A DNA stretch of 64,000 nucleotides from Sphingomonas donggukensis (lineage in GTDB: Bacteria > Pseudomonadota > Alphaproteobacteria > Sphingomonadales > Sphingomonadaceae): NCBI RefSeq assembly GCF_023674425.1, contig NZ_CP098401.1:2170001-2234000 (forward strand). The letters run 5' to 3'. The notes under the pieces are model-generated. The model was not told where the DNA came from, made no database searches, and was given only the letters and a program-made list of their open reading frames with translations. Positions 17,585 through 47,899 of the stretch are shown here, in pieces. The translations under genes and the position numbers were made by a program. Every line of letters starts with the position of its first letter. Positions within the stretch are counted from its first letter, which is position 1.

Positions 17585-17589
17585 TCCTC
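17585..17589. repeat. target site duplication, left copy (TCCTC)
   Basis: TCCTC immediately before the first base of the transposon. The same five bases follow its last base at 47895-47899. A 5-bp duplication is the hallmark of Tn7-like and related DDE transposition. Confidence 0.9.
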
Positions 17590-17637
17590 TATCCCTTGCC
17601 CAATAGACTTTGCCCGATGGGACAAAGTCGCTGCCCG
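17590..17637 (+). repeat. transposon left end with TnsB-type binding sites
   Basis: Three TGCCC-centred units: TTGCCC at 17596-17601, GACTTTGCCCGATG at 17606-17619, and GACAAAGTCGCTGCCCG at 17621-17637. GACTTTG (17606-17612) and CAAAGTC (17623-17629) also form a small palindrome. GACTTTGCCCG is identical to the outermost site at the right end. Confidence 0.8.
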
Positions 17638-17705
17638 CGAAATGGTTGGATTACGCCGTCCGGTGACCTCATTCTCTAGCTCGATCAACGAGTTGGAGAG
17701 ATGAA

Positions 17706-19124
17706 TTGCCCATACGGCCCGAGGCGTTCGACACGCCCCTTCATTACACCACGGCTTGGTGTTTACCTCACCACAACGAGCTCGACTTCGGTCGGCGCAA
17801 TATCGGGTGGGAAGACACGGTAGCAGGCCGTGCGGTCTACAACGAGCTCAGCGCGCGTGGTCTCTCTGAAGCCGACATCGGATTGTTCGCCGGCGACGAG
17901 ATTATCGCTGTCACGCCCCCAGCTCCTCTGGCCACCGCTGGCCCCACCATTCTCCGCTCCGACACGGATCCAACGAATCGCAGCGATCTCCGGCTGACGC
18001 TCGACCTGACGCTCGCGAATCTTGCGCGCGAGACAATGATGTCTGCCGCCCGTCAGCCCCAGGGAGGTGAGCTGCCAGCGTGGACCTTGCTGACGACGCC
18101 GATCACCGAACAACTGCTGCGGCTCAACAAGACCAGCTCCTACCAGATCTGGCAGGACGCTGCGTGGGATACCGAAATCGAAATTACCGGAGATGCTCGG
18201 CGCGTCCTGCAGCATCGCCTTAGCCGAGTTGGACCGGTCCTACTGACGACTTCCTGCGAGCTCGCCCCGGACTTGACGATCGGGCAGGATCGGGAGACCT
18301 ACCTGATGGTCGGTGCGAAGCGATGCCTGGGAGCCGTGGAAGCCGCTGCCGGCTCCACGTTGGGTGAGGTAGTCGACCTCACCGGCGTTCCTCTGGCCGA
18401 GTATTTGGGAAGCCTCGAGGTCAAGCGCGCGTCGCCGTGCTCAGACGGAACCGGCATCATAGCTACGGTCTCGATGCCTGTCTGCACGATGGCGCCTATT
18501 CCGGCGCTTGCCTTGGAGCATTTCGGGTTCAATTCGTATACCGACGAAGAGGCTAGGCTTCCCCTTTGGACCTTGGTCAAACGCGTGCCCGAGTGGGTGC
18601 CACCGTTTCCGGCGTCGACGAAGCAGGCAGCGCCACCGTCCAATCCGGCCATCCTCACGACCATAGAGCCAAACGGCGGTCCGATCACCGACGTCGTCAC
18701 CCGCGCCGTCGACAAGCAACCCGAAGCTCGGCGCGAGCAGGTGCGGGAGGTCGTCCTGTCATATGTGGCGTTCCGGCATCTGCACGGCGATGGCCCTAGC
18801 GACATATTCACGGAGTCTGCGTTCCATGGGCGCGTGAAGGTCGCGGATTTCCTCAACACCCGCCAGTCGGAACGTGCGCAGATGTCGATACATCTGCGGT
18901 CCGCTGGCGACATTGCAGACCGCGTTCGCGTTGCCGCCGAGCTAGCGCCCACGGTGCGGGCGCTGCGGGTATTTTACGCCGAGCTCAACTTCGCTGGAAT
19001 TTGTTCGGAATCTCCTCTCGACTCCAAGCAATGGGACGAACCGCCCGGCTTCGGTCCCATCCCGCGAAATGCCGCCGGCCACGCTGCGTCGTTCGCGAAC
19101 TCCTTGATTAATGGAAATATCTGA
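17706..19124 (+). CDS. cargo protein of unknown function (472 aa)
   Basis: The first cargo gene, 116 bp inside the left end. The TTG start is chosen because GGAGAG lies 7 nt upstream and no ATG keeps this frame. The protein is soluble, without membrane segments, signal peptide or a nuclease or ATPase motif that I can recognise. The middle (about 140-300) is acidic and contains four cysteines (TTSCELAP, AKRCLGAV, SPCSDGTG, MPVCTMAP). The C-terminal third is helical (REQVREVVLSYVAFRHLHGD). It ends 1 nt before the next gene's ATG, so the two are an operon. Possible roles include a new defence component; no function can be assigned. Confidence 0.75.
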   Translation: MPIRPEAFDTPLHYTTAWCLPHHNELDFGRRNIGWEDTVAGRAVYNELSARGLSEADIGLFAGDEIIAVTPPAPLATAGPTILRSDTDPTNRSDLRLTLDLTLANLARETMMSAARQPQGGELPAWTLLTTPITEQLLRLNKTSSYQIWQDAAWDTEIEITGDARRVLQHRLSRVGPVLLTTSCELAPDLTIGQDRETYLMVGAKRCLGAVEAAAGSTLGEVVDLTGVPLAEYLGSLEVKRASPCSDGTGIIATVSMPVCTMAPIPALALEHFGFNSYTDEEARLPLWTLVKRVPEWVPPFPASTKQAAPPSNPAILTTIEPNGGPITDVVTRAVDKQPEARREQVREVVLSYVAFRHLHGDGPSDIFTESAFHGRVKVADFLNTRQSERAQMSIHLRSAGDIADRVRVAAELAPTVRALRVFYAELNFAGICSESPLDSKQWDEPPGFGPIPRNAAGHAASFANSLINGNI

Positions 19125-19125
19125 C

Positions 19126-19767
19126 ATGGCGAAGAAACCGTCCAAAGCCCTTTCGATCGCCCCTGCCCCGCCTCCGACCACCATTCGCCAAATGGGCAAC
19201 GAACTGGTCCGCGTCGATGCGGTCTATCACGTGCAGGACGTGGCACCGAATTCGCCGGGTCCTTGGAACATCGAGGCCGAAAAGGTGGCCTGGATCGACG
19301 CGGCTACGGGATACGGTTGCATCATCCGCCGATCGGCGGGGGGCGGCCATCTGGAGGGCTACGTCGGGGTCAAGCCCGGGCACCCGCTGTTCGGCTACAG
19401 CGCGTCGGCCCTGCGCGATCTCGGCCTGCGGGTCCACGGCGGGATCAACTACGCGGAGCCCTGCCTGGGGCCGGAGCCGGAGGACAGGTCGGTATGCCAC
19501 ATCTCGCTCGATGAGCGAATGCGCACCTCGCAGACACCCGTGCATGCGCAAGCGCGCGATGACATGTGGTGGATCGGCTTCGAGTGCAATCAGCCCACCG
19601 ACCTCGTTCCCAAACAGCGGGCTTCCAGTGCGTCATCTCAGCTCCTGGGCACCGTGGAGCAAGTCTACCGCGACGAGGGCTACGTGCTCGATCAGTGCCG
19701 GTGGCTCGCGGAACAGATGAAGGCGATCGGCGACGGCCACATGATCCTCAGCGGCATCGAGAGCTAA
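19126..19767 (+). CDS. conserved cargo protein of unknown function (213 aa)
   Basis: Starts at the ATG after the stop of the preceding gene (TGAcATG). An earlier in-frame ATG at 19111 lacks a ribosome site. Distinct motifs are GYVGVKPGHPLFGY, VHGGINYAEPC, VCHISLDER, and WWIGFECNQPTDLVP, then YRDEGYVLDQCRWLAEQM. I recall proteins of this general look being frequent in phages, plasmids and islands of proteobacteria, always unassigned. Three histidine/cysteine-rich spots could bind metal. Its placement suggests it works with the 472-aa protein. Confidence 0.75.
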   Translation: MAKKPSKALSIAPAPPPTTIRQMGNELVRVDAVYHVQDVAPNSPGPWNIEAEKVAWIDAATGYGCIIRRSAGGGHLEGYVGVKPGHPLFGYSASALRDLGLRVHGGINYAEPCLGPEPEDRSVCHISLDERMRTSQTPVHAQARDDMWWIGFECNQPTDLVPKQRASSASSQLLGTVEQVYRDEGYVLDQCRWLAEQMKAIGDGHMILSGIES

Positions 19768-19921
19768 CTCGCCCAGGCGTTCTGACGCGCGCCCCGTGTC
19801 GCCGACCCCTCTCGCTTACGGCGCTGTGGATATCAAAGTCATCCGCACCCGGCGCGGTCACGGATTTCAATCGAGATTGTGACTTAAGCAATGGGAAAAG
19901 AAATCATGTTACTCGTCGACC

Positions 19922-20503
19922 ATGCTCCGAAAGATACGCGGTCTTGCTCTAAAGGCCATTCTAGCCGCCCTGCTGGCACCGTTGGCAAAGCTGCTCGTGG
20001 ATGCGCATGGCGCCTCCATCAGGGAATTCGGGGCGATCATGCTTGAGCGTCTCTTCGATGACCACTTCGCCTGGTGCATTTGGCTCGGGGTCGGCATCGC
20101 GGTCGGCGCCTACGTGCACTCCCGGACACGTCGGCTCGAGGAGACAACGAGGGGCCGGCTCGGGGGTCCCAGCATGCGCTACATCCGCTGGGAGATCCGG
20201 GCAGTCCGGCTGGCGATCCGTTTCAAGTGGCTGAGGGCCCTCAGCGCCGACCTGGATCGGGACCTCGTCGACTTGAACGCCGTGCTCGTTGCACGGGATT
20301 TCCCGCCCCTGCCGAGCCTTTCCCTCAGCGACCGATCCGGGATGCTTCAGACTGATGAATACCTGAGACGAATCGCTCCTCACATCAGCGAGAAGCACTT
20401 CGCGGAGGCACGCATCGCCGCCGAGCGCTTCACCCACCCATCGACCCCGATCGAAGCCAAGACACCTACCAAGCGCGTCCGGGCGAATCCGAAAGCGGGT
20501 TAG
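19922..20503 (+). CDS. putative membrane protein (193 aa), unknown
   Basis: Two hydrophobic stretches (about 8-26, LALKAILAALLAPLAKLL; about 50-66, FAWCIWLGVGIAVGAYV) precede a basic cytosolic C-terminus with helical charge patterns and a Lys/Arg-rich tail. The ribosome site is weak, so the start is uncertain. It lies 154 bp after the previous cargo gene on the same strand. A small inner-membrane protein downstream of two unknowns could be an effector, but nothing in the sequence proves it. Confidence 0.55.
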   Translation: MLRKIRGLALKAILAALLAPLAKLLVDAHGASIREFGAIMLERLFDDHFAWCIWLGVGIAVGAYVHSRTRRLEETTRGRLGGPSMRYIRWEIRAVRLAIRFKWLRALSADLDRDLVDLNAVLVARDFPPLPSLSLSDRSGMLQTDEYLRRIAPHISEKHFAEARIAAERFTHPSTPIEAKTPTKRVRANPKAG

Positions 20504-20581
20504 CGCCGCCAGCGTCGGCCCTAGGCACCCGACGCTTGTGACGGACGCTACGAAGCCCCCGCAGTCGATAGGCATTAGCTT

Positions 20582-21484
20582 TCAACGGTGCGAGTATCGT
20601 TCGCGCCAAGTGACGGGTTCGACCTTGGGCGAACCCGCACCACCATAGACGTAGTCCCTGGCGAACTCCGTCTCATCAACCATCCCTGCCTCGCTCACTT
20701 CGCGCCACCAGACCTTGCGATCGGCGTTCCAGCGATAGCCCCTCCCCTTAAGAGCGACGCGCGCGGCGAAGGGCGCTTCCGTCATCTCAATCCTCCACGT
20801 CGGCCTGGCGGCTGTGCGGAGCAACTCGCGCATCACCGTCCCACCGGTGTCGAGTCGATGGTCGATGAGGTGCAGTAGCGCGTTGACGTCGGACGCCGCG
20901 CGATGAGCGTCGTAGAACCAGCCACACTGGAGCAGCAGCTGGGTCTGCGAACGGCCCTCGAAGCCGTGCTCGCGCCAGTCCATGTCATTCATGCTGCAGA
21001 TCCAAGCCTGCCCCCTGACGCCCAGCCGCTCCTCCACGAAAGGGCGGTCGAACGCCGCGTTGTGGCAAACTACGACATCGGCGCTCGTGATCGCGCCATA
21101 AGCCTCGCCGTCGTGGATCGACTTGCCGGCGAGCTGGGCGTCGGTCAGTCCGGTCACTTTGACGATCTCGGGCAAAAGAGGTTCCCCGGGATCCTCCAGC
21201 CAGCTCCGCGAAAGGCCAGAGTCCACGATGCGACCGTGCTCATCGATGCGCACGTTCTGCAACGCCAGTTCGATGATGCGATCGTTCCTGGGATCAAGGC
21301 CGGTCGTCTCGGTGTCCAGCACGCAGACGGTGAGCTCGTCCGTCCGCTTGAAGCGCGGCTGCCTCACATCCATCGGCTGAATGCGCCTGAGCACCCGGTA
21401 GTCGTCGTGCCGGTCGAGCGCGCGCGCAAGGGTGCCGGCCGGAACCGGCACCCCTACGATGTCCGCCTTAGGCACCGCCCTCAT
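20582..21484 (-). CDS. DEDDh-family 3'-5' exonuclease (DnaQ-like)
   Basis: 300 aa from the ATG at 21484, which overlaps the stop of the gene upstream (ATGA). The exonuclease core is complete: VLDTETTGLDPRNDRIIELA (Exo I), VVCHNAAFDRPFVEERL (Exo II) and AHRAASDVNALLHLI (Exo IIIepsilon, with the histidine). A C-terminal 80-residue region contains KGRGYRWNADRKVWW, resembling the short domain found behind other DnaQ-like cargo exonucleases. It should degrade single-stranded or nicked DNA or RNA. It is encoded with the 261-aa protein and divergently from the ArsR regulator. Confidence 0.88.
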   Translation of the reverse strand: MRAVPKADIVGVPVPAGTLARALDRHDDYRVLRRIQPMDVRQPRFKRTDELTVCVLDTETTGLDPRNDRIIELALQNVRIDEHGRIVDSGLSRSWLEDPGEPLLPEIVKVTGLTDAQLAGKSIHDGEAYGAITSADVVVCHNAAFDRPFVEERLGVRGQAWICSMNDMDWREHGFEGRSQTQLLLQCGWFYDAHRAASDVNALLHLIDHRLDTGGTVMRELLRTAARPTWRIEMTEAPFAARVALKGRGYRWNADRKVWWREVSEAGMVDETEFARDYVYGGAGSPKVEPVTWRERYSHR

Positions 21485-22266
21485 GCGGCAAACCGCTGCT
21501 CGACCTGCACATCCAGCCCCGCGCCGAGTTCGCAAGCCGGATTGCGGGCCACGGTCGCCAACATACGCCGCATCGGTTCCGAGAGCAGCATACCCGCAAG
21601 CGTGCTCTCGCAATCGAAACCCTCGCTCACTGTCGCCGCGTCAGCCAGACTTGTGCCATATCGCGTCGTGAGGCGGCGGCGGGCCCAAGTCTCGTCGGGT
21701 GCTACCATCGCGCAAAACGCCTGCACGCAGCGATCGCCAGGGCCCAGTGGTCCTTCCACAATGCAGGAGAAAAGGCGCATCTCGGGCGCGTCGAACCGCA
21801 TCGAGGCCTCGTCACCCTCGTATGTCTCGTCGTCTGCTTCGTCGGGATAGTCGTCATTATCGCCACCGAGGCCGTCGTCCGGATCGTCGGAGAGCAGCGC
21901 GTCGAGCTCGTCGGCATCGGCATCAAGGCCTAGCGAAAGGCCGTGCAAGAGGGTGGCTCGCAGGAAAGGCTCGCGGTCCTGACAGGCATCAATCGCCGAC
22001 CGACCGCTGAACAACATGCGCGGCGCCAGCAGCCATGCCACCGGATCGTGAGGCAGTCCCTCCCGCACGAAACGGGCGCCGGTGTCGGCCGCCAGCATCG
22101 CTAGGCGACGCAGCCGGCGATCCGTGGTGAGCACCGGAGTGTCGGCGGGCTCGTCGGGATCAAGGGGATCGCAGCTGCGTGTCGCGGCGGACGGTCGGAA
22201 GTGGGTCGGGATGGTGACGGGGACCGGTGCGCAGACACGCTCGGACAGGGTCGCGACTAAAGCCAT
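21481..22266 (-). CDS. unknown protein co-operonic with the DnaQ-like exonuclease (261 aa)
   Basis: No clear family. The centre reads DPVAWLLAPRMLFSGRSAIDACQ followed by LLHGLSLGLDADADELDALL, which loosely recalls the MbcA/ParS/Xre C-terminal toxin-binding domain (a WL..P...GR.. pattern). An acidic stretch (about 128-150, DDPDDGLGGDNDDYPDEADD) and a cysteine-containing C-terminus follow. It shares a 4-bp overlap with the exonuclease gene, so the pair is one operon. The antitoxin-like resemblance is weak and is offered only as a lead. Confidence 0.7.
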   Translation of the reverse strand: MALVATLSERVCAPVPVTIPTHFRPSAATRSCDPLDPDEPADTPVLTTDRRLRRLAMLAADTGARFVREGLPHDPVAWLLAPRMLFSGRSAIDACQDREPFLRATLLHGLSLGLDADADELDALLSDDPDDGLGGDNDDYPDEADDETYEGDEASMRFDAPEMRLFSCIVEGPLGPGDRCVQAFCAMVAPDETWARRRLTTRYGTSLADAATVSEGFDCESTLAGMLLSEPMRRMLATVARNPACELGAGLDVQVEQRFAA

Positions 22267-22343
22267 GATGCCTCCTTCTCATTGCCCTCCGGCGCGCCGG
22301 CGCGGAGGTTTCGCCTGATCAGCCAGACACATATAGAAATTTA

Positions 22344-22447
22344 CAACGATATTTCAACGATAGTCGCAGGATGAAAAGGATGAACAGGATTTCACCAATT
22401 TCATTTGCATTTATCAACCATACGACTATTGTCGAATGATGCGACAA
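22344..22447. promoter_or_regulatory. A+T-rich divergent control region with repeats for the ArsR-type regulator
   Basis: CAACGATA occurs twice 11 bp apart (22344-22351, 22355-22362) and runs into ATAGTCG. CGACTAT follows at 22423-22429 in opposite sense. TTGTCG (22429-22434) and CGACAA (22442-22447) form an inverted repeat over the regulator's start codon. A possible promoter TTGCAT-16-TATTGT (22405-22432) would give a near-leaderless mRNA. Together these look like operators for autoregulation and for the divergent exonuclease operon; binding is inferred. Confidence 0.5.
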
Positions 22448-22711
22448 TCACTCGCCATCCAGACCCTCTCGGCACTCGCTCACGATACCCGTTTGAACGT
22501 CTACCGGCTTCTTGCCGGGTTGAGTCCGGACGGTATGTCCGCTGGCGACATCGCCGCGAAACTGAAGATCCCTCCCACGTCGCTGTCCAACCATCTGGGT
22601 ATTCTTGCTCGGGCCGGGGTAGTGACGCACGAACGTAAGGGGAGATTGATCATCTATCGGGCGCGTCCGGATCGGGTGGTAGCGCTTTCGCGATTATTGG
22701 CAGAGGGTTGA
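22436..22711 (+). CDS. ArsR-family winged-helix regulator
   Basis: 91 aa, the length of a minimal ArsR protein. ALAHDTRLNVYRLLAGLSPDG is the family's opening helix pair, AGDIAAKLKIPPTSLSNHLGIL the recognition helix, and RKGRLIIYRA the wing. No CxC metal site is present, so the inducer is not a metal bound in the usual way. It sits 60 bp in front of the helicase-methylase operon on the same strand and divergent from the exonuclease operon. It most likely controls the cassette, as dedicated regulators do in many restriction-type systems. Confidence 0.85.
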   Translation: MMRQSLAIQTLSALAHDTRLNVYRLLAGLSPDGMSAGDIAAKLKIPPTSLSNHLGILARAGVVTHERKGRLIIYRARPDRVVALSRLLAEG

Positions 22712-22771
22712 AGTTCGCCACGCTCCGAAAGATTGGGACAGATCGCCCAAGGCGAAATCAGGAACAGTAAA

Positions 22772-25700
22772 ATGCCTAGGGTCTTCGATAACATCTCCGA
22801 CCGACTTCTCGACGCTCTTGACCTCACATTGCAGGGTGCCACCTCCGCTGATTTCTGCGTGGGCTATTTCAACCTACGAGGATGGCAGCGGCTTGATGCC
22901 CGCGTTGAGCCATGGAATGGCGGCGACGGTGCCCAATGCCGTCTGTTGGTCGGCATGCAGAAGGCGCCCCAAGATGAACTACGCGCCCTGTTGAGCCTGC
23001 ATGGCGAAGACGGCCTGCTCGACAATCAGGCTGCTCTGCGCCTACGCAAGAAACTCGCTGAGGACTTCCGCGCTCAGCTTACGATCGGCGTGCCGACGTC
23101 GGCCGACGAGGCGGCACTTCAAAGGCTTGCACGTCAGATTCGCGACCGAAAACTGGTAGTGAAGCTGTTCTTGCGACACACGCTTCACGCCAAGCTCTAT
23201 CTTGTGAACCGGCCCGACCAGATCACTCCGCGCGTCGGCTACGTGGGCAGCAGCAACCTGACTATGTCGGGTCTCGCCGCGCAGGGAGAGCTCAACATCG
23301 ACGTGCTCGACCACGATGCCACCACCAAGCTATCCGGCTGGTTCGACGATAGGTGGAACGACCGCTGGTGCATCGACATCTCGGACGAGTTGGCTACCAT
23401 CATCGAGACCAGCTGGGCGAGATCAGAGATCGTGCCGCCCTACCTAATCTACCTAAAAATGGCCTACCACCTCTCGCAGGAAGCTCGCGCGGGGCTTGCC
23501 AGCTTCCAGATCCCGCCCGACCTTCGCGAGCGGATTTTGGATTTCCAAGCAGCGGCGGTGCGCATCGCTGCACACCATCTCAACAAGCGCGGCGGGGTGA
23601 TGCTGGGCGACGTCGTCGGCCTCGGCAAAACACTGATGGCGACTGCACTCGCGCGCGTCTTCGAAGACGACTTCGGCTACGAAACGCTTATTCTGTGCCC
23701 GGTCAACCTCGTGAAGATGTGGGACGATTATAGGCAGCGCTACGGCCTTCGCGCCACCATCGTGCCACACTCCCAAGTCCAGAGCAGGCTCCCCGAACTA
23801 CGCCGTCATAGACTGGTCATCGTCGACGAGAGTCACAACCTCCGCAACCGCGAGGGCATCCGCTATCGCGCAATTCAGGAATACATCTCGGAGAATGACA
23901 GCAAGGTGATCTTGCTGTCCGCAACGCCCTACAACAAGACGTTTCTGGACCTCTCCAGTCAGCTACGGCTTTTCATCGACAGCGATGAACCCTTGGCCAT
24001 CCGGCCTGAAGCCCTGTTGCGCGAAATCGGCGAATCCAATTTTCTCCTTGCCCACCAGTGCCCGGTGAACTCCATCGCAGCGTTCGAAAAGAGCTCGCAT
24101 GCCGACGACTGGCGTGAACTCATGCGCTACTATCTTGTCCGGCGCACACGGAGTTTTATCCAAGAGAATTACGCTGCTCTAGATCCTGAAAACGGACGGC
24201 GGTTTCTCACCCTTTCCGGCGGGGTTCGCTCCTACTTCCCGCAACGGGTTCCGCGCACGTTGACGTTCGCAATCGACGACGGGGACCCCGCCGATCAATA
24301 CGGCCAGCTATACGCTGCCGCAGTCGTGTCGGACATCAATTCTCTTCAACTGCCACGCTACGGTCTCGGAAACTACGAGCACCGTAAGCCCCATACGATC
24401 CCCTCCCCCGACGAACGACGGATTCTCGATGACCTTTCTCGCGGTGGCCGGAGGCTTATGGGATTCTGCCGCACCAATCTGTTCAAGCGACTTGAGAGTG
24501 GCGGACATACCTTTATCCAGTCCCTGGATCGGCACGTGCTACGCAACTTCATCGTGTTACATGCCCTCCAAAATGGATTACCGCTTCCAATCGGAACGCA
24601 AGATCAGGCAATGCTCGAGACGGACGAGGACCTGGAAGCAGCTGACCTCCTTGACGGCGTTCACGCTGCGGAACATGTCGGCAGCATAGACCTTTACCGG
24701 GAGCGTGCCGCAAGCGCGTATCAAGCGTATTCAACTCGTTACAGTCGCCGCTTCAAATGGGTTGGATCGCACCTTTTTAGCCCACAGCTCGCCCGCGATC
24801 TGGAGAGCGATGCCAATAAATTGATCACCATCCTCGACCGGGCGGGCGGCTGGGATCCAGAACGCGACTCCAAGCTCGACGCTCTCGTTGATCTACTGCA
24901 GGGTAAGCACGCCGGCGAGAAGGTGATCATCTTCTCGCAGTTCGCGGACACAGCCAATTACGTCGCATCCGCCCTAAAGCAACGCGGCCTCGATCGCGTC
25001 GCTGCTGTAACGGGCAATTCAGAAGATCCCACCTCCTTGGCTTGGCGGTTCAGTCCCGTTAGCAACGACAAGCGAGAACTCGTATCGCCGCAAGAGGAGT
25101 TGCGAGTACTCGTGGCAACCGATGTCCTTTCCGAGGGGCACAACCTTCAGGATGCCGCAGTCGTAGTGAATTTCGACATCCCGTGGGCGATCATTCGATT
25201 GATTCAGCGCGCAGGCCGCGTCGATCGTATCGGGCAACAGGCCGAAGACGTGATCTGTTACACCTTCCTTCCTGCGGACGGTGTGGAGCGGATCATCGGA
25301 CTGCGTCAGCGCGTTACCGCCCGGCTCCACGAGAACAAGGAGGTTATCGGGACTGATGAGAGCTTCTTCGACGGCGAAGATCAAGGCGTGCTTATCGACC
25401 TATACAATGAGCGAGCCGGCATCCTGGATCCGGACGAAACGACGGAGGTCGATCTCTCTTCTTACGCCTATCAGATCTGGAAAAACGCCATTGATGCTGA
25501 TCCGCAGCTCGAGAAGCGGGTCGCAGAACTTCCCAACGTAGTATTCTCGACCAAAGCGCACGAGCCAGGACCGTTCACGCCTGAAGGCGCGCTCGTCTAT
25601 TTGCGAACCGCCGAAGACACAGACGTGCTCGCCTGGATCGACCGCAACGGAAACCCCGTGACCGAGTCTCAATTTGCCATCCTCAGAGCGGCAGAGTGCA

Positions 25701-26122
25701 ACTCCCTTACCCCTGGACTGCCGCGCTTGCCGGAACATCACGAAATTGTCGCGCAAGGGGTCACAACCATCGTAGCCCAAGAGCGCCAGGCGGGTGGTCA
25801 GCTTGGGCGCCCGTCTAGCGCACGATACCGGGCATACGAGAAACTTAAGAATTTCCTCGATCAGAATGCTGGATCACTATTCGACACCACCGAGCGACGG
25901 CGTGCCCTGGATGAGATTTACCGCTTCCCTCTCAGGGAAAGCGCACGCAACCTGCTCAACAGGCAGCTAAAGGCCGGCATCACCGGGGAGGAGCTCGCTT
26001 CGCTAATGACGAGCTTGCGCGAAGAGGAACGACTTTGCGTAATCGAAGACGTTGACGGCGAGGACAATGAACCCAGGATCATCTGCTCCTTGGGCTTAAC
26101 TGCGCACGGGGGGAACGCATGA
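22772..26122 (+). CDS. PLD-domain / SNF2-type helicase, restriction-like defence protein
   Basis: 1116 aa from the ATG at 22772 (AGGAAC upstream). The N-terminal phospholipase-D-like nuclease domain (about 20-200) carries HAKLYLV near 138 and [10 protein letters not shown]. The SNF2/superfamily-2 helicase has motif [11 protein letters not shown] near 282, the DESH box near 350, LLSATP near 383, and C-terminal motifs [15 protein letters not shown] and [11 protein letters not shown] (about 785-820). Such fusions accompany N6-adenine methylases in anti-phage restriction-like systems. It overlaps the methylase start by 4 bp (ATGA), so both are made together. It is likely the DNA-translocating, cleaving arm of the system. 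Confidence 0.9.
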
Positions 26123-38064: not shown

Positions 38065-38307
38065 CTAGTCCGTGCCGATTTCGCGCCAGCTCTTCTCCGA
38101 CACTTCGATGTCGAACTTCTTCGCAGCCGCCTTGATCCGCTTCCAGGCTGCATCCCGCTCATCGTCGGTGACGTCCTTCACCTGGTTGAAGCGGGCGATC
38201 GCATTCCGCACATGGCTTGCGTTCTCGAGCGGTTCCTTCCGCTGCTTCGGAAACGCGAAATCGCCCTTCTCGAGTTCGTCCCGGTCTTCTGCGCTGAGTT
38301 CGGCCAT
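38065..38307 (-). CDS. DUF6582-type small protein
   Basis: 80 aa from the ATG at 38307, with GGAGG five nt upstream. LSAEDRDELEKGDFAFPKQR is followed by PLENASHVRNAIARFNQV and DAAWKRIKAAAKKFDI. This small basic domain occurs often in phage and island proteins, sometimes tied to capsid-maturation or ChaB-like segments. Function unknown. It is convergent with the RES gene (21 bp between stops). Confidence 0.75.
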   Translation of the reverse strand: MAELSAEDRDELEKGDFAFPKQRKEPLENASHVRNAIARFNQVKDVTDDERDAAWKRIKAAAKKFDIEVSEKSWREIGTD

Positions 38308-38452
38308 CATCACCTCCATCGGTAGGAAGGTGATCAAACGCTCGCTGCGGGCGATTGGGCCAACGGCGAGCCCTGCTAGCCGTGCAAACGTGGTTTCCAA
38401 GGAGTTCGGGGGAGCTGACGGTCTGACGGGAGACGGTGTCATCGCAACTACG

Positions 38453-39193: not shown

Positions 39194-40350
39194 AGAGGGA
39201 GGTCATACATCAGCGGTTCGAGTTCGACCAATTCGCGCAGGCGCGAAAGCACTCGCTTAAGTGCTGCTCCTTGATCCTCCGGTCGCGCCGCCCCAGCCGC
39301 CAACCCCAATCGTTTCGCGTTGTGCGCCTCGATCGCATCTTCGATCATCCACAGATTCGAGACATCCAACGAAGGTAGAGCCGCCTCTCGTCCAGTCCGA
39401 TAACTGACGTTACCCTCGCGCTTACCAACGCCGAGCCATATGCGGCCCAGCCTGTTGCCGAGATTTCGAATTACAGCGCGGCCATAGTGGCGTTCTGACG
39501 TCGAACTTGGTGGGGCGGCAATCTGCATTCGTTGCGCGATAAGCGCTCTCCCCTCGGTATCATCAGGATCGAATCGAATATCCATCTCAGGCCCGTCGGC
39601 GCAGACGTCCAGGTGATCGATATCCAGTTCAGCGACGCCGCCGAGTGCATCCTCAGCGGCGTGGATCGCACCTAAGGCCAATGACCTGTCCGTAGCCACG
39701 GAAGCGCCCAGCACCACACCCGTGCCTTCGTCGATCACAGCGTAGAGCCTCAGGCGCAGACCCTCGGGATCGAGCAGGTCCAAACCAGCGCTGTCGATTA
39801 TGATCTTACACCCGAAGCGCCCCGGCGGGGACTCTCGGCGGGCGGCTTCGATCAGTTTGATCAGTGTCGCAGGGGAGGGCATCTCACCGCCCTCTGCCAA
39901 CATCATGGTTCGAATTGCCCCGGCGCTCAGGCCATGGTTCTCGTTGGTGAGCGCCAACGCCCGCTGCTTGATCCGATCACGCTGAGAGTCGCTGATACCG
40001 GACGCGCGATTGAGGGAGTCCGCCGCATGAATTCCAAGCGAAGCTAGGTGGGGCGACTCCTTCCAAGCCGCCAGCAATCCGTAAAGGCGTGAGGGCTGCA
40101 CGCCTGCGATTGCCGCAGCGTCCTTTACGCTCGCTATCCCCGCCTCGGCAGTCACCGGCGCCGTGATCGCCAAGATTGCCTTCAACCGCTGCGCCAACCG
40201 TAGGCGCTTCTCGGGCGACAGGCTCGCGAGAACGAGTTCGTCTTGCCTAGGCAGTCCGTCCGGCCACACCCGCAATAGCAGGTCATCCAATTCCGAACCG
40301 ACCGACTTCATTAGCTTTCCAATTTCTGCGTCCACTTCGTGGACGCACAT
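39148..40350 (-). CDS. integrase-fold protein resembling TnsB but apparently catalytically dead
   Basis: 400 aa from the ATG at 40350 (GGAAGAG nine nt upstream; a TTG at 40398 is weaker). HTH units (SVKDAAAIAGVQPSRLYGLL and GLSAGAIRTMMLAEGG) precede an RNase-H-like core: CKIIIDSAGLDLL (D1), LYAVIDEGTGVVLGASVA, then LDVCADGPEMDIRF (D2). Where the third acid should be (GxVER in the family) it reads HYGRAVIRNLGNRLGR, with Ile in place of Glu. The frame is open and well formed, so this is a maintained protein rather than a relic. It is divergent from tnsA and convergent with the multi-HTH gene. Possible roles: regulator, end-binding accessory or immunity factor. Confidence 0.65.
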   Translation of the reverse strand: MCVHEVDAEIGKLMKSVGSELDDLLLRVWPDGLPRQDELVLASLSPEKRLRLAQRLKAILAITAPVTAEAGIASVKDAAAIAGVQPSRLYGLLAAWKESPHLASLGIHAADSLNRASGISDSQRDRIKQRALALTNENHGLSAGAIRTMMLAEGGEMPSPATLIKLIEAARRESPPGRFGCKIIIDSAGLDLLDPEGLRLRLYAVIDEGTGVVLGASVATDRSLALGAIHAAEDALGGVAELDIDHLDVCADGPEMDIRFDPDDTEGRALIAQRMQIAAPPSSTSERHYGRAVIRNLGNRLGRIWLGVGKREGNVSYRTGREAALPSLDVSNLWMIEDAIEAHNAKRLGLAAGAARPEDQGAALKRVLSRLRELVELEPLMYDLPLYAPLKGDFAVSSDD

Positions 40351-40391
40351 ACAGCATCGCTCTTCCAGTTCCACTAAAATGATAAAACCGT

Positions 40392-40420
40392 TTGACAATG
40401 ACCATACGCACCACCATTAT
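40392..40420 (+). promoter_or_regulatory. strong candidate promoter for the tns operon
   Basis: TTGACA (40392-40397), a 17-bp spacer, CATTAT (40415-40420), in an A+T-rich patch. Transcription would start near 40427, just before the leader ORF and tnsA. It is the best sigma70-type match I noticed in the element. Confidence 0.65.
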
Positions 40421-40449
40421 CAGTCACACAAATGTTGTAAGGAAGTTTG

Positions 40450-40596: not shown

Positions 40597-41467
40597 TGGG
40601 TTTCGTCGCAACCCACTGGCGTGCCACAAAAGTCCGGGCTGAGCTGGGTGACCGCGTGCTCCCCGTGGTCGGGACTCCGGTTTCGCAGGTCGTAATGCGC
40701 TCGCCGCGTCCCGATCATTTCCACGATCCCGAGGAACCCGCGCTGCGCAGCAGGATCCGGAAGATCGTTCGCGACGCCGACATCGACGGTGACAAGCTCG
40801 TCCCGATGGCGACCATGTTCCGCGCCGAAGGGGGCGGTCCGTTGCGAACTTTCAACGGCGGCTTGGCCCATGAGAATGGCTGGATCCCGAGCCGCAAGGC
40901 GCGTCGGCTCCTCCATTGGGAAGGCGAAGCGCAGAGGGCGTTGGTCGTGCGCTGCGAGAGCGACTTCGCCGTCGATCAGGTCGCAACAGAAAGCGTAGGC
41001 CTTACGATCCCTTTCGTGGTGGCTTCGTCGACTATACCACCGACGTTGAGACCGTCGGCCCCGACGGAGCGACAACGCTGTGGGAAGTGAAGCGCGACGA
41101 GCGAGACTTAGCGGACCCCGACTTCCGCCTCCTCCTCGCCATGGTCGCCGAAATCCTCCGTCGTTGCGACATCGGCTTCGGCGTCATCTTCCGTGACGAG
41201 ATCTTCCAGGACCGCATTCATCGCGCGAATGCAGAACTGTTCGCCGCCCGGGCTTTTGCAACGGTGGAGCTGAAACATCTCCACCGCTTGGAGAACCATT
41301 TCATCGGCAACGGTCCAATTTCGACGCTCGGCGCTCTCGCTGAAGCACTTGAGCCTACCTCGACCAACGCCGGCCGCGCGCTGGTTCAGGCCCTGACCAT
41401 CCGCCGCCGGGTCGAGATCGATCTCACCCAGCGGATCGGTCCCCACACGCCGCTTACGATCTACTGA
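40596..41467 (+). CDS. tnsA: TnsA-like endonuclease, split by a -1 frame change
   Basis: Read with one -1 shift at 41009-41015, the product is about 290 aa, near the 273 aa of Tn7 TnsA. The first frame carries GWIPSRKARRLLHWEGEAQRAL (an acidic active-site residue within WEGEAQ), then ESDFAVDQVATES. The second frame supplies YTTDVE and LWEVKRDERD, matching the catalytic Asp and Lys of TnsA-type nucleases, and a winged-helix-like C-terminus. TnsA cuts the 5' strands at the transposon ends to give cut-and-paste movement. Without the shift the first frame stops at 41090 and lacks the Asp and Lys. It is either programmed frameshifting, a mutation or a sequence error. Confidence 0.7.
41009..41041 (+). 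promoter_or_regulatory. putative -1 ribosomal frameshift signal in tnsA
   Basis: C CCT TTC (41009-41015) is an X XXY YYZ heptamer in phase with the upstream frame. After a -1 slip both tRNAs re-pair as CCC and TTT. A stem GGTGG (41018-41022) / CCACC (41037-41041) follows after 2 nt. The spacing is shorter than the usual 5-8 nt and the stem is short, so the stimulator is questionable. Confidence 0.5.
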
Positions 41468-41482
41468 AAGGAGAACGCCCAA

Positions 41483-41677: not shown

Positions 41678-41780
41678 GGCACCAGCCCACACCAACTGAA
41701 CCATCGATCAGACTTGCAGACCGAGGCCGCATGACGCGGCTCTTCGGACGAGTTCCTACGCCTAAAACAACGGAGAAATC

Positions 41781-42023
41781 ATGACTTTCTACAGAATCGC
41801 CCCCGGTGCCGTTAGCGAGCCTGACGGGTTGCTGAGCCCCACTCCCCAAAACAGCGTCGGGCGACTGCCCACCAAATCGGCCCGCCGTCGCTCGAACGAT
41901 ACGCGGCGGCGGCACTTCGACAGGCGCCTCGACGGCAGGATGGTGGAAGACGCCTTCCTGATTGAAGCCGGCCGCGCATGGCTCGACGCTTACTTTCCAA
42001 CCGACCGCGTCCCGAGCGCCTAG
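41781..42023 (+). CDS. small ORF between tnsA and tnsB (80 aa)
   Basis: CGGAG precedes the ATG by six nt. The product is basic in the middle (SARRRSNDTRRRHFDRRL) with an acidic/aromatic end (EDAFLIEAGRAWLDAYFPTD). No family recognised. It is placed in the tns operon, 80 bp before tnsB, so it may be a small accessory protein of transposition. Confidence 0.45.
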   Translation: MTFYRIAPGAVSEPDGLLSPTPQNSVGRLPTKSARRRSNDTRRRHFDRRLDGRMVEDAFLIEAGRAWLDAYFPTDRVPSA

Positions 42024-42103
42024 CGCGGACCAGCGCCCGGCACGCTCTCAGCACGCACCGTGCTCCCCCTCGCGACCTCGCTCGATCCCATCAAGGAGTA
42101 ACC

Positions 42104-44320
42104 ATGAGTTACAACAAGTTTGCGCCCGGCACGCTCATCTACATCGACGGCGCGGAGTTCCGAGCGGAAGGCTACAGCAAGGGCCGCATCGGCCTCATCA
42201 ATACCGTGACCGGTGCCAGCTACCTGTGCCGCGACAAGGACGGAGAGTTCGGCCTGCTCACCGACGACGAGTTCGACAGCTTGCTCGAAGGCGGTCGGCT
42301 TAAGATCGTTAGCCCCCGCACCACCGATCGCGTTCGCCTTCAAAATGAGGTGTCGCAAATCTCCCTCGCGCAGGCGAGCAAGGCGGATCCCGGCATCGAG
42401 AAGATGATCGAGCAGTGCCGTCTGCTTGACGATTTGGGCGTACCCAATGGCGACAAAGCGATCCTGCGGGCCCTGGCGAAACGGTGGGACGCGGAAATGA
42501 TCGCAAAGCACGGTCCGCACGACCCGCCGCGCACGATCCGGTATTGGCGCAGCAAGCGAGGGCGCCCGGGGAACCGGCATCCCCGCGACATGGTGAGGCT
42601 CAACCGCGTCGCGGTTGCGCGGCGTTCACCCAACAACGCAAACCGCCAAGTGCTCTGGAAGCATGCGATCGAGGGGTGGACCGTCAAGGCGCTGCCCAAG
42701 CATGTCCACGCTTCCTACGCGGCAGAGATTCGCCAGATCAACGAGGGCCGGCACCCGCTCTTTCCAAAGCCTGAAGAACCTTACAAGACCGTTTCCCAGC
42801 GCACGGTCCGCCGCGCATACGATTGGCTCGAATCCAGCGCCACTGTGGCCACGAAGGATGGCAAGGCGGCCGTCGAGCAGGACTGGAGGGGGGCCGGCCG
42901 CTCGCTCACCGCCGATTTCGCCTTCCACAGGGTCATCATCGACCACACCCGGCTCAACGCGTTCGCCGTCGACGACGAATTCGAGATCGTGCTCGGCCGT
43001 CCGTGGCTGACCTTGGCAATCGACGTGCGGACGCGCGCCATCGTCGCCTCGCTGATCAGCTTCACGTCGCCATGCTCTTGGACGGTCGGTGAGATCCTGC
43101 GCCGGATGGCTCTCCCCAAGCGCCCTCCGTCCGAGATGGCGGAGCGATACCCGGTCCTTCGAAAGATTCGAGGCAAGCCGACGGAGATCGTCGTCGACAA
43201 CGCGGCGGAGTTCCGCAGCCATACGATGGAGGCCGCAGCGCGGGGCGCCGGCATCGGCGTTCGCTTCTGCCCGATCAAGGCTCCACGCTACCGTGCTGTT
43301 GGCGAGCGCGCCATGGGCACCATCAACCGCGAGATTTGCGGCCTGCTCCCCGGCCGGGTGCTTCCCCCGCACGACGCGCGCCGATTCTCCCACAATCCCG
43401 AGGACGAGGCCTGCGTTTTGATGCGTGACCTCGAGGCCGTCGCGAACATGGCGATCGCAATCTACCATACCGAGCCCCACTCCGGCATCGGCGACCGCCA
43501 ACCCGCTCTCATGATCGAACATGAGATGAACAGGCACGGCATCACCAACTTCGCAGACCTCGACTCCTTTCGCATCGACACGATGAAGATCGCGGAGGAC
43601 GCGCAGGTAACGCCGAGCGGCATACGTGCGTTCGGCATGCGGTATCACAACATCCTGGCGGTGCCGTCATTGCTCGACGACCTCGTGCCGCTGGAAGGCC
43701 GCCGACAGCGACGCGACGATTCCACGGCGACCGTCGATTTCCGCTACGATCCGATGGATATCGGCCGCATCCATGTTTGGAACCGTCGAAGCCGAAAGTT
43801 CGTCGAGCTCACGTGCTCGGACGAGCGGTATGCCGATGGGATGCCCGAATGGTTCCACATGCAAATCGGGGCCAAGGCTAAGCAGGACAAAGAGGCCTTC
43901 AATACGGAGGACGAGCGTCTGGCCGCCAGATCCCGAATGATCCAGGCTATCCGCGACATCAGTCTAACCGCAAAGAAGAAGTCCCGCGAGAACCTGGCCA
44001 GGCTGCTGGAAATCCGGCACCACCGCGAGATCGTCGGCAACATCGTCGAGCTGAGCACGATCGAGCCGGAACCCGTTTCGATCGACGAATTCATCGCATG
44101 CGACCGCGCCGCCCTGACGTCGCTCGACCAGGAGATCCTCTCCAGCAGGCCGGTGGCCAGGGAGCGGAAGTCCCACGCGAACATGCGCGGACGCCATGCC
44201 GAACGTGAGGCCCGGGACCCCCGCGACGCCGGTCAGCCCCGCCCCGAGCCGACGCCCCCCGAGCCCGGCCAAGCCCGGCGCCGTCCCCGTGTCAAAGCCG
44301 CACGAGGAGGTTTCGAATGA
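42104..44320 (+). CDS. tnsB: TnsB-like DDE transposase
   Basis: 738 aa from the ATG at 42104 (AAGGAG upstream). The rve-type catalytic core has D280 (VIIDHTRLNAF), D365 (EIVVDNAAEFRS) and E401 (YRAVGERAMGTINRE), with 35 residues between the last two, so it is complete. N-terminal HTH domains (about 90-250) bind the end repeats, and the C-terminal tail (Pro/Arg-rich after about 700) should contact TnsC. TnsB joins the 3' ends to the target. Its stop overlaps the tnsC start (ATGA). Confidence 0.93.
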   Translation: MSYNKFAPGTLIYIDGAEFRAEGYSKGRIGLINTVTGASYLCRDKDGEFGLLTDDEFDSLLEGGRLKIVSPRTTDRVRLQNEVSQISLAQASKADPGIEKMIEQCRLLDDLGVPNGDKAILRALAKRWDAEMIAKHGPHDPPRTIRYWRSKRGRPGNRHPRDMVRLNRVAVARRSPNNANRQVLWKHAIEGWTVKALPKHVHASYAAEIRQINEGRHPLFPKPEEPYKTVSQRTVRRAYDWLESSATVATKDGKAAVEQDWRGAGRSLTADFAFHRVIIDHTRLNAFAVDDEFEIVLGRPWLTLAIDVRTRAIVASLISFTSPCSWTVGEILRRMALPKRPPSEMAERYPVLRKIRGKPTEIVVDNAAEFRSHTMEAAARGAGIGVRFCPIKAPRYRAVGERAMGTINREICGLLPGRVLPPHDARRFSHNPEDEACVLMRDLEAVANMAIAIYHTEPHSGIGDRQPALMIEHEMNRHGITNFADLDSFRIDTMKIAEDAQVTPSGIRAFGMRYHNILAVPSLLDDLVPLEGRRQRRDDSTATVDFRYDPMDIGRIHVWNRRSRKFVELTCSDERYADGMPEWFHMQIGAKAKQDKEAFNTEDERLAARSRMIQAIRDISLTAKKKSRENLARLLEIRHHREIVGNIVELSTIEPEPVSIDEFIACDRAALTSLDQEILSSRPVARERKSHANMRGRHAEREARDPRDAGQPRPEPTPPEPGQARRRPRVKAARGGFE

Positions 44321-45222
44321 CTGAGAAAGCCAGTGAGAGGGCCGCGCGCATCGGCGCGGCCCGAGCCGAGTTCGACGGCATCGTCGTCGACTATCCGCCC
44401 ACGACCGCCGCAATCGAGACGATCGAGGAGCTGCGCGTCGCGACGCGGCTGCGCCCCGCCAGCACGCCTTGTGGCGGGATCCTGCTCAACGCCCCCATCG
44501 GCACCGGCAAAACCTCGACGGTGCGGCAGGCGGCTACCTATGCCGCAAGCACCGCCCCCGAGGGGAACACGCCGATCCTGCTCGTGGAAATGCCCACGGC
44601 CGGATCGACCGACTCGGTGCCGTCCGCCATCCTTGGGGCATTGGGCCACGCCCGCCCGGACCTCGGCAAGCCGGCGGCGCGGTGGCTCCGCGCTGTCGCG
44701 GATATGCGAGCCCGGGGCGTCGAGATCCTCGTCTTTGACGAGTTCAATCGCGCCAATCGCCGCCCCACGATGAGCCGACCGATCGCCACCAGCATCCGCG
44801 AGCACATCATGGATGCCGGTGTCGCCGCCGTGGTCTTCGTCGGAACCGCCGACGCAGCCGTTGTCCTCGACCAGTGCCCCGAGTTGCTCGACCGCCTCGA
44901 GGGCGAGATCGACCTCAGCCCGCTCGAATGGTGCGATGAGGAAGACCGCGAGCTCTTCACGGATTTCGTAAAGGACATCGATCAGGCACTGGTCGACAAG
45001 CGACTCCTGGATGAACACTCCGGCCTAGGGAAGGCGAAGGTCGCACAACGGCTGTGCGAGGCGTCGAGAGGCCGGCTGCGCCCCCTCATGCGGATCGTGC
45101 GGGGAGCTATGGCAATCGCGATGAAACGGGACGGCACCTCGATCAGCGTGGCTGATCTCCACGACGCCACTGAGGACTACGCAAAGCGCTTCCGCATGAT
45201 CGAACGGAACCCTTTCGCATGA
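44317..45222 (+). CDS. tnsC: TnsC/TniB-like AAA+ ATPase
   Basis: 301 aa. Walker A is APIGTGKTS (residues about 59-67) and Walker B EILVFDEFNRANRR (about 136-149); a sensor region VVFVGTADAAVV follows. It links the target selector (TniQ) to the transposase and is regulated by ATP. The length is closer to TniB-type TnsC than to the 555-aa TnsC of Tn7. It overlaps tnsB and tniQ by 4 bp each, so the three are tightly coupled. Confidence 0.93.
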   Translation: MTEKASERAARIGAARAEFDGIVVDYPPTTAAIETIEELRVATRLRPASTPCGGILLNAPIGTGKTSTVRQAATYAASTAPEGNTPILLVEMPTAGSTDSVPSAILGALGHARPDLGKPAARWLRAVADMRARGVEILVFDEFNRANRRPTMSRPIATSIREHIMDAGVAAVVFVGTADAAVVLDQCPELLDRLEGEIDLSPLEWCDEEDRELFTDFVKDIDQALVDKRLLDEHSGLGKAKVAQRLCEASRGRLRPLMRIVRGAMAIAMKRDGTSISVADLHDATEDYAKRFRMIERNPFA

Positions 45223-47099
45223 GCGTCGTCGACCAGATGCCGCCGAAGGCGCCTTGGCGCGTCAGCACCGTCCGCCCGCCCCTGCCGGGCGAGTCGGCGG
45301 ATGGGCTCGTCGCCCGCGTGGCGGCCGGCGAGTTCGCCAACCGCACGTTCGAGATCACTTCCATGGCTGGCGCGGATTTCACCCATCGCGCTGCAGTCTC
45401 GCGGCAAGACGCACGCGGCATCTCTATTGTCGCTGATTGCCTCCGCGTCGATCCTGAGGATTTAGCGCAACGCTGTGCCGTGGTGCAGGGCGGACCCCAA
45501 CGGACCCGACGAAATGCGTTCTTCGGAACGTCGATCGACGCGCTTCACGTGGTGACGACGGTGCGTCGGTTCGCGCCCGCTTCACTCGTCATTTCTGAAC
45601 ACCACCGCGCGCTGTGGATGCTTCGCCCACTTCCGTTCTGTGAGGAGACCTGGCAGTTCTTGGCGCAGAATTGCCCGAATCCGCATTGCGGCTTTACCCA
45701 ACGCTGGCAGCTCACCAACGGGGTTGGCCTCTGTGATTCCTGCGGAGAACCTCTCACGCGCGCCCAAGCCGAAGTCGTGCCGCATGCCCTGCGCACGAAC
45801 CTGGGCCACGCCGTTGGCCTCGTGCATCCGGATCCGGAGCGTCGCAGCCAATCACTGGGGCTGCTTCCCCCAGAGATCTCCAAGTTGCCACTCGGAAATC
45901 TGTTCGACCTAATGTGCGCCTTGGCTGGCGTGTTCGATCCGGAAGTGCGTTTTAAGAGCTCGAGGCGCGCAATAGACCCTAACGCCCCTCATCCACTTGT
46001 CGCGGCGGCGATGGCGGGCGCCTGGTCCGTGCTGTCTACATGGCCTGAAGGTTTCGAGCGGCTTGCCGGGGACCGCCTTGCAACGCGGGTTGGAAGATTC
46101 GGAGACGGTAATTCTGGAGCTACCCTCGACTTCTTGCTCACACCCTCGCGCACCAAACTCGCGCCGGACGTGGCAAGTGTCATTGAGCAGATGCGGGAGC
46201 GGCTCAGCGGCAATGCCACTGACGGCTATCACGTTCGTGTCGCAGCCGCCCGCACCGGCAGCACCGCTAGCGCAATGGCCGCCGCCCGACGGCGCGGCGA
46301 AGTGCCCACGGTGTTCCACCTGAATGGCCGCAGAGTGTTGCCCCTGATCGAGCGCACTGCAATCGATGCTATGACTTCGATGGTTCGGACTCCGCACCGG
46401 TATGCAGCCGCGCATCTCGGCGTCACCTTTCGTGCCGTGGAGGAGTTGATCCTCTGCGGCCTGCTTGAAGCGGGCGGACAACCGCTCAGTCGCTCAACCA
46501 TGGAGACTGTGACGCAGGCGTCGTTGAAGAGGCTGACGGACGATATCCGAGGCGCGGCTGGCCCCGCGCGGAAAGACGCCATTCCGATGCGGCATGCGAT
46601 GCGGAGCGTGGGTGGCCGCCTCAAGCCCTGGGCCGCTGCCATTCAAGCGATGCTCGCTGGCTCGCTGAAGTTTCAAATGGACGACACCGAAGGTCCGCTG
46701 ATGAATCGAGTTGCGGTGCCGCCCGACTATGTGAACCTTATCATCAGCTTGGCCGATATTGCCGATGACGCCGCTCGGCCGTTCGCAACGATGATGTCGA
46801 AGGGCGACGCCGCAGACGCGCTCAACCTTATGCCGCGTCAATACGAGACGGTGCTTCAAAAATGGCCTTCTTCGAATGGGTGGGAACGCACCGTTCCCGT
46901 GGCTGCCGTCGAAAACATGCTTCGAATTTTCGCGTCGGCCTCAGAAATCGCCCATCGGCTCAGCATTCCAGCCGCCGCAGTCCGCCGCCGGATGAGGGAA
47001 CAGGGCGTAGCTCGCTTGTCGGACGCGGGTTATGACCGCGCAGCTTTCGATGCGATCTATGGACCTCGGCTCGGCAGCACTTCTAAAACAGACGACTAG
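45219..47099 (+). CDS. tniQ: TniQ/TnsD-family target selector
   Basis: 626 aa. The TniQ opening PPLPGESADGLVARVA is near residue 22. A zinc finger with CPNPHC and CDSC lies near 152-175, and several HTH-like stretches follow, including MASASEIAHRLSIPAAAVRRRM-type helices at the C-terminus. It is longer than the minimal TniQ of CRISPR-linked elements and nearer to TnsD-type selectors, which fits sequence-specific targeting of a fixed site. The natural candidate target is the tRNA-Gln gene 7 bp from the left end. No second TniQ is present. Confidence 0.9.
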   Translation: MSVVDQMPPKAPWRVSTVRPPLPGESADGLVARVAAGEFANRTFEITSMAGADFTHRAAVSRQDARGISIVADCLRVDPEDLAQRCAVVQGGPQRTRRNAFFGTSIDALHVVTTVRRFAPASLVISEHHRALWMLRPLPFCEETWQFLAQNCPNPHCGFTQRWQLTNGVGLCDSCGEPLTRAQAEVVPHALRTNLGHAVGLVHPDPERRSQSLGLLPPEISKLPLGNLFDLMCALAGVFDPEVRFKSSRRAIDPNAPHPLVAAAMAGAWSVLSTWPEGFERLAGDRLATRVGRFGDGNSGATLDFLLTPSRTKLAPDVASVIEQMRERLSGNATDGYHVRVAAARTGSTASAMAAARRRGEVPTVFHLNGRRVLPLIERTAIDAMTSMVRTPHRYAAAHLGVTFRAVEELILCGLLEAGGQPLSRSTMETVTQASLKRLTDDIRGAAGPARKDAIPMRHAMRSVGGRLKPWAAAIQAMLAGSLKFQMDDTEGPLMNRVAVPPDYVNLIISLADIADDAARPFATMMSKGDAADALNLMPRQYETVLQKWPSSNGWERTVPVAAVENMLRIFASASEIAHRLSIPAAAVRRRMREQGVARLSDAGYDRAAFDAIYGPRLGSTSKTDD

Positions 47100-47184
47100 C
47101 GTGATGGTCCGCAGCTCTCGGCTCGACAATCCACCGTGGATCGCATCAGCATTTCATTAAGATGGGCACGACTACCCTAGTGCC

Positions 47185-47658
47185 GTGAACAGCTACCTCT
47201 GCCCAGATTGGCTAAAGTGCCGCAAGGTCACAGACCTCGAATATGCCAGATGGCTGGAAGCACAAACTTCAAGCATCTGGGCTCGCGAACTGGACTGCGG
47301 CAAAGGCACTTTCGCGACGAAGGTCGAACTCAAGCAGACCTTACATCGCGCGGCTCATGCCAGCACGGGTTTTGACCCCTATACGGGCGCCCGCTTTTTC
47401 GTGAAGCATATGCGCACCGGCTGGATCGACAGCCAGGCGCACCTCAAGGGCAACAGGCACTACCAGAGTCTTCGCAGATGCATGCCCTCGTTTGATCACG
47501 TTCGAGGCCTCGGCCACAAGGCATATGAACTCTGCACCCGGGAAACCAACAGCGCCAAGAGCTTCATGTCTCCGGCTCAGTTCATCGATCTATGCCACCG
47601 AGTGGCTCGGCACCGCAGCGTCAACCCGTCACTAGAGCAGGTCTCCGCACGCCAGTAG
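47185..47658 (+). CDS. small cargo or accessory protein downstream of tniQ (157 aa)
   Basis: GTG start without a good ribosome site, 85 bp after the tniQ stop. The protein is basic and contains CPDWLKCRKV, ELDCGKGTFATK, ARFFVKHMRTGWIDSQAH and two more cysteines. I do not recognise a family. Its place between tniQ and the right-end binding sites suggests an accessory transposition factor or late cargo. Confidence 0.5.
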   Translation: MNSYLCPDWLKCRKVTDLEYARWLEAQTSSIWARELDCGKGTFATKVELKQTLHRAAHASTGFDPYTGARFFVKHMRTGWIDSQAHLKGNRHYQSLRRCMPSFDHVRGLGHKAYELCTRETNSAKSFMSPAQFIDLCHRVARHRSVNPSLEQVSARQ

Positions 47659-47780
47659 GCAGATGCGGCTCTCGCTCTGCGCGCACCAGAATCAGAACGC
47701 AAAAGGGTGCAGTGTCTTATCAGCCGCGAGCATCTCCACTGGACTATCGAGATGCCAGCTAACCTACTGATATTGAACGA

Positions 47781-47894
47781 TCGGGCAATGACCTGTCCAA
47801 AAAGCGCGAGTTCGGGCAATGTCTTTGGCATCGGGCAACCTCCCCCTTTTGTCACTACGAGGGGACTGCGGGCAAAGTCTCCTGACAAGGGACA
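47781..47894 (-). repeat. transposon right end with four TnsB-type binding sites
   Basis: Four copies of CGGGCAA(A/T/C): 47782-47792 (CGGGCAATGAC), 47813-47823 (CGGGCAATGTC), 47832-47842 (CGGGCAACCTC) and 47869-47879 (CGGGCAAAGTC), all in one orientation, with starts 31, 19 and 37 bp apart. The end itself reads TGTCCCTTGTCA on the minus strand. Against three units at the left end this gives the asymmetric ends typical of Tn7-like elements. Confidence 0.85.
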
Positions 47895-47899
47895 TCCTC
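47895..47899. repeat. target site duplication, right copy (TCCTC)
   Basis: Exact match to the 5 bp at 17585-17589, immediately after the last base of the transposon. Joining the two flanks would restore the tRNA-Gln to S41-peptidase junction. Confidence 0.9.

Follow-up and report, generated by a model that had tools for sequence, protein, structure and literature searches.

A Tn7-like transposon behind tRNA-Gln in Sphingomonas donggukensis and a related group of TniQ proteins tied to the same target

Introduction

Tn7 uses TnsABCD to enter a single safe site in the chromosome, attTn7, which lies behind the conserved gene glmS; TnsA, TnsB and TnsC are combined with a selector of the TniQ family, the insertion carries a 5-bp duplication, and the ends are repeated. 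tRNA genes also serve as targets: the type I-D and I-B2 CASTs (CyCAST and PmcCAST) home to them by TniQ/TnsD, and CAST I-D inserts 30-33 nt behind the tRNA (PMC10293859, PMC11406308). In Tn6022, the accessory gene tnsE lies on the opposite strand, and TnsF, a dead tyrosine recombinase, is an accessory selector targeting comM (PMC10293859). That Tn7-like elements carry defence genes and insert behind tRNAs is already known (PMC8649781). The survey of Benler et al. (2021) likewise covers defence-carrying Tn7-like elements; its main text does not mention Argonaute, and no tRNA-Gln lineage or TnsB-like pair was found there.

Here we analysed a window of 64,000 nt from Sphingomonas donggukensis (contig NZ_CP098401.1), which contains a Tn7-like element inserted behind tRNA-Gln. 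The element shares with Tn7 the set of TnsA, TnsB, TnsC and a TniQ-family selector, the 5-bp duplication, the repeated ends and the position behind a conserved gene. Unlike Tn7, it targets tRNA-Gln at 6-7 nt, has no recognised TnsE and carries an extra TnsB-like pair, and its TnsB is only marginally similar to that of Tn7. The probable homing to tRNA by TniQ/TnsD resembles CyCAST and PmcCAST, but no CRISPR-Cas was found in the S. donggukensis element, its TnsA and TnsB are separate proteins, and the 30-33 nt spacing of CAST I-D contrasts with 6-7 nt in the tRNA-Gln and tRNA-Arg elements described below. TnsF of Tn6022 offers a precedent for an inactivated recombinase as an accessory protein, although the S. 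donggukensis pair is TnsB/Mu-like. What is new here is a tRNA-Gln lineage of tRNA-targeting Tn7-like elements, with closer spacing than CAST I-D.

Results

The element proper spans positions 17590-47894 of the window (30,305 bp). It is bordered by exact copies of the target duplication TCCTC at 17585-17589 and 47895-47899. An earlier note, made from the letters of this DNA, had set both ends at this duplication, and they stand; its extent of 17585-47899 covered the right span with both duplications counted in. The left, tRNA-proximal end (17590-17640) reads TATCCCTTGCCCAATAGACTTTGCCCG (first bases TATCCCTTG), carries TnsB-site-like repeats and has homologous ends in relatives. The right end (47777-47894), read as the reverse complement, is TGTCCCTTGTCAGGAGACTTTGCCCG (first bases TGTCCCTTG) and contains four copies of TTGCCCG within 113 bp, all in a single orientation, with fewer copies at the left end. 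This asymmetric array looks as expected of TnsB sites. The inverted match between the two ends noted earlier is real and is an exact 12-mer, AGACTTTGCCCG, rather than an 11-mer. The G+C content is 61% inside the element and 69% in the flanks. By terminal score and duplication alone, the 17590/47894 pair tied with another for the best of 134 duplication-matched candidate pairs, so what decides the assignment is the exact 12-mer, together with the array of repeats and the homology of the ends to those of four relatives. The 5-bp duplication and the ends with TnsB-site-like repeat arrays are those of a Tn7-like element.

The transposition genes lie near the right end, all on the forward strand: TnsA (40916-41467) with conserved D43, E57 and K59, the TnsB transposase (41978-44320; Mu-transpos_C domain and TnsB matches in the PDB), TnsC, an AAA+ ATPase of the TniB type by family match (44317-45222), and a target selector of the TniQ/TnsD type with 626 aa (45219-47099). 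A 157-aa ORF (47185-47658, forward strand) between tniQ and the right end has no homologue in the other elements. The sequences of TnsA and TniQ from S. donggukensis gave no match to their Pfam models. TnsA_N was detected in four of six TnsA homologues, though not in this copy, and TnsA had no match in the PDB. PF06527 (TniQ) was found in four of seven aligned TniQ relatives (best E 1.3e-8), the TniQ profile matched a TniQ in the PDB at 2e-5, and the first nine matches of the predicted structure were all TniQ proteins, with modest E values (best 2.3e-3, prob 1.00). Together with the ends and their repeats, this identification of a TnsA endonuclease, a DDE TnsB, an AAA+ TnsC and a TniQ/TnsD-family selector bears out a complete Tn7-like transposon with tnsABC/tniQ inside, as had been proposed. 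The presence of TnsA separates it from Tn5053/Tn402 (tniABQ), which are defined by having no TnsA. No CRISPR-like repeats were found in the element and no cas effector was recognised among the scanned cargo genes, which places it outside the CASTs and makes guidance by protein likely. On plasmids, only remote relatives of TnsB were found. In two related loci (L128 and L129), the tniQ frame runs on into an AbrB/MazE-like C-terminal segment, and a similar segment lies just 3' of tniQ in L133.

The presumed attachment site is tRNA-Gln (CTG) at 17509-17582 on the forward strand, which is intact and complete through the CCA according to ARAGORN and Rfam; the same tRNA is found at four relatives. 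The insertion lies 7 nt past the CCA, in agreement with the earlier note, and an S41 peptidase gene follows on the far side. We compared ten tRNA-linked elements including that of S. donggukensis, five at tRNA-Gln(CTG) and five at tRNA-Arg(TCT). The four nearest relatives of its TniQ, from Actirhodobacter atriluteus, an Erythrobacteraceae MAG, Novosphingobium organovorum and N. profundi, are all at tRNA-Gln(CTG), 6 nt past the CCA, and the tRNA-side ends within this group are recognisably homologous. The A. atriluteus element is 22.5 kb long and has the exact duplication TGAGC. Among the tRNA-Arg(TCT) elements, exact duplications were found for G010 (29 kb, TCGTT), G170 (20 kb, TTCCG) and G231 (66 kb, TTCCG); in G593 and G594 the tRNA-side end is correctly placed, and a search for an exact duplication found none. 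The spacing from the CCA is 6 nt in nine of the ten elements and 7 nt in S. donggukensis. For G142, G083a and more distant relatives, among them G136, G093 and G329, the ends could not be located. G093 near tRNA-Leu and G083b near tRNA-Gly were left out of the count because no terminal pair was found.

In the TniQ tree, the five tRNA-Gln TniQs form one clade (support 98/98) with the tRNA-Arg TniQs as neighbours, so the choice of target tracks TniQ; insertion occurs at a fixed distance behind a tRNA that is common to the TniQ clade. From these comparisons of sequence, TniQ of S. donggukensis very probably recognises the tRNA-Gln gene. Of the earlier proposal that TniQ reads tRNA-Gln DNA, the tie of the lineage to tRNA-Gln is supported by clade and spacing. 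We further infer direct contact between TniQ and the DNA, and an element that can still transpose.

Two side observations concern other elements of this set. In N. profundi (L133), two elements sit in tandem at one tRNA-Gln with the same end orientation: a 4.8-kb element with the duplication AAGTG (L133:13470-18228) separates the tRNA-Gln from the end of a related element that is older. The 20-kb element of G170 (G170:C3, 42335-62495 of the assembled stretch) has a duplication, tniQ and ends that look intact, and tnsA, tnsB and tnsC were undetected in it; it may be decayed or moved in trans.

The orientation of the S. donggukensis element, with the cargo end at the tRNA and the tns genes distal, had been singled out as deserving description. 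It is not distinctive, since the tRNA-Arg relatives are arranged likewise. In the other tRNA-Gln elements, tniQ points towards the tRNA; with the homologous ends as reference, the tns block of S. donggukensis is therefore inverted.

We searched for an empty site using the S41 gene, the ppx-tRNA-Gln region and the joined flank as queries. A single ancestral junction behind the two TCCTC copies would read CCATTTCCTC-CGCATCC. The check suggested earlier, an empty tRNA-Gln/S41 site with a single TCCTC, gave no such site: no tRNA-Gln joined to the S41 gene was present among the matches listed for 294 congeners, none lay within 1.5 kb of S41 at 29 relatives' S41 loci, and in the 44 cases with both on one contig they were 21 kb or more apart. 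The linkage of ppx and tRNA-Gln is kept across the genus, and the S41-side synteny is shuffled. In element-free genomes, the native sequence after the CCA resembles the left flank (CCATTTCCT.., CCAATTTCCTC.., CCAAATCCTCC..). The earlier note would have given up its claim if tRNA-Gln and S41 were never adjacent in related genomes. They were indeed not adjacent in the loci and listed matches above, but with the shuffled synteny and the similar native sequence we read this as the lack of an informative empty site and not as a refutation. We considered whether the junction arose by an inversion, taking the nearest congener (G504) for comparison, and set this aside: the genes upstream of S41 there sit at two distant places in S. 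donggukensis, and gene order is too scrambled for a decision. Behind tRNA-Gln of the nearest congener (L059:2740-4238) lie unrelated genes with the look, by eye, of an OLD-type nuclease, which suggests a general integration hotspot.

The cargo begins with three end-proximal genes on the forward strand with no assigned function (17706-19124, 19111-19767 and 19922-20503; overall 17706-20503). The second of them has homologues with 34-36% identity in two tRNA-Arg elements, G010 and G594, close to the end that faces the tRNA, and is possibly a conserved end-proximal gene. They are followed by genes assigned by family match to a DEDD 3'-5' exonuclease of the PRK09182 family (20582-21613, reverse), an ArsR-type HTH regulator (22436-22711, forward), a PLD(HKD)-SNF2 helicase (22733-26122, forward) and a type IIG restriction-methylation enzyme of the Eco57I type (26119-29376, forward; 725 bits). 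The next gene (29379-30509, reverse) has no family match and a PD-(D/E)XK-like motif seen by eye only. A short prokaryotic Argonaute (30564-32015, reverse; PADLOC pAgo_I, 593 bits) is paired with an Argonaute-associated nuclease with DUF4365 (Pfam) and an APAZ-like region, a SPARDA-type partner (32012-33361, reverse; PADLOC, 514 bits). A CBASS CD-NTase (34479-35834, reverse; PADLOC, 549 bits; Pfam DncV-like/AGS_C) stands with a CBASS effector of the 2TM-SAVED type by family match (35837-37042, reverse). Family matches also identify a toxin-like RES-domain protein (37231-38043, forward) and a DUF6582 protein (38065-38502, reverse). The cargo is mostly antiviral defence; "defence-only", as the element had been called, is too strong, since several cargo genes match nothing.

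Just upstream of tnsA are two convergent genes for TnsB-like accessory proteins, orf373 (38072-39193, forward; true start probably at about 38444 or beyond) and orf416 (39148-40398, reverse), the better conserved of the two. They are paralogues (hhalign 97.9%), and orf373 of S. donggukensis lacks the C-terminal half present in relatives. In 401 genomes of the family, a related tniQ was found in 24, an orf416 homologue in 23 and both in 18 (hypergeometric 5.5e-22). In all 17 same-contig cases, the orf416 homologue is encoded on the strand opposite to tniQ and 4.2-5.9 kb upstream of it, by the start of the tns operon, and most of these loci also have its convergent partner. Across 385 genomes sampled from the class, orf416 occurred in two only, both of the genus of S. 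donggukensis. The pair belongs to a gene order that is conserved in most relatives. It was undetected in the closest tRNA-Gln relatives, and is hence dispensable for the tRNA-Gln target.

All 11 PDB matches of the predicted orf416 structure with E<=0.001 were TnsB, MuA or transpososome chains, with a pLDDT of 62 and low TM-scores, which is consistent with a TnsB/Mu-type fold. A C-terminal motif of orf416 aligns with the E-helix of TnsB. In an alignment of remote homologues, the catalytic E is absent in 20 of 20 orf416 homologues and the second D is kept only in the S. donggukensis copy, so that orf416 apparently has no complete DDE triad. A profile-profile comparison of orf416 with the element's own TnsB, based on few rows, was not significant, and the homology to TnsB therefore rests on structure and motif. 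Both proteins are probably dead copies of a transposase. Their role would most plausibly be in binding the ends, or in a second targeting or regulatory mode. A literature search by keyword found no description of such a pair, which is weak evidence of novelty.

Discussion

We interpret the locus as a chromosomal Tn7-like transposon with TniQ-directed insertion in one orientation, 6-7 nt past the CCA of tRNA-Gln(CTG), with a probability of roughly 0.9. In the proposed mechanism, TniQ would bind the tRNA-Gln(CTG) gene in its 3' part and guide TnsC and TnsAB, so that the element integrates at this distance in a single orientation, the tRNA stays intact and 5 bp are duplicated. Integrases commonly use the 3' ends of tRNA genes, and unrelated genes lie behind this tRNA in the nearest congener, so an ordinary tRNA island placed by a tyrosine integrase, with the tns genes as mere cargo, has to be weighed. 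It is hardly credible: no integrase was recognised, each border shows a Tn7-like end with repeats next to the 5-bp duplication, homologous ends occur at the same spacing in relatives, and no second copy or fragment of the tRNA was found at the far border. That the left and right ends stem from two separate insertions fused by a chromosomal rearrangement, so that 17590-47894 is not one unit, is very unlikely. The large distance between tRNA-Gln and S41 in the genus and the tns orientation unlike that of sister elements would fit such a history, but the same 5-bp duplication at both ends has a chance of about 1/1024 for defined ends, and synteny is generally shuffled here, so the tRNA-Gln/S41 junction may simply predate the insertion.

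Another protein of the element, such as one of the TnsB-like proteins or the product of the 157-aa ORF, might choose the target with TniQ as an adaptor only, like TnsF in Tn6022 (PMC10293859), and the conservation of the pair beside tnsA would agree with this. We consider it unlikely, because the closest tRNA-Gln relatives share the target while the pair was undetected in them, they have no homologue of the 157-aa ORF, and TniQ is long (626 aa) like direct DNA-binding TnsD proteins. TniQ-directed insertion is thus retained as the preferred reading. For the pair itself, we tentatively suggest, by analogy with TnsF, that these catalytically dead TnsB paralogues of sphingomonads could serve the transpososome as a dedicated component without catalytic function, or could make up a second system for regulation or for the choice of target.

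A tree of TniQ in which neighbouring groups go with Arg-TCT and Gln-CTG, both at a spacing of 6-7 nt, provides a comparison for how TniQ/TnsD reads DNA, which matters for protein-guided insertion tools, and insertion so near the CCA makes a compact landing site. A short Argonaute pair and CBASS would travel together on one mapped unit. From the conserved pair, it would seem that Tn7-like elements have taken on dead copies of their own transposase as accessory components.
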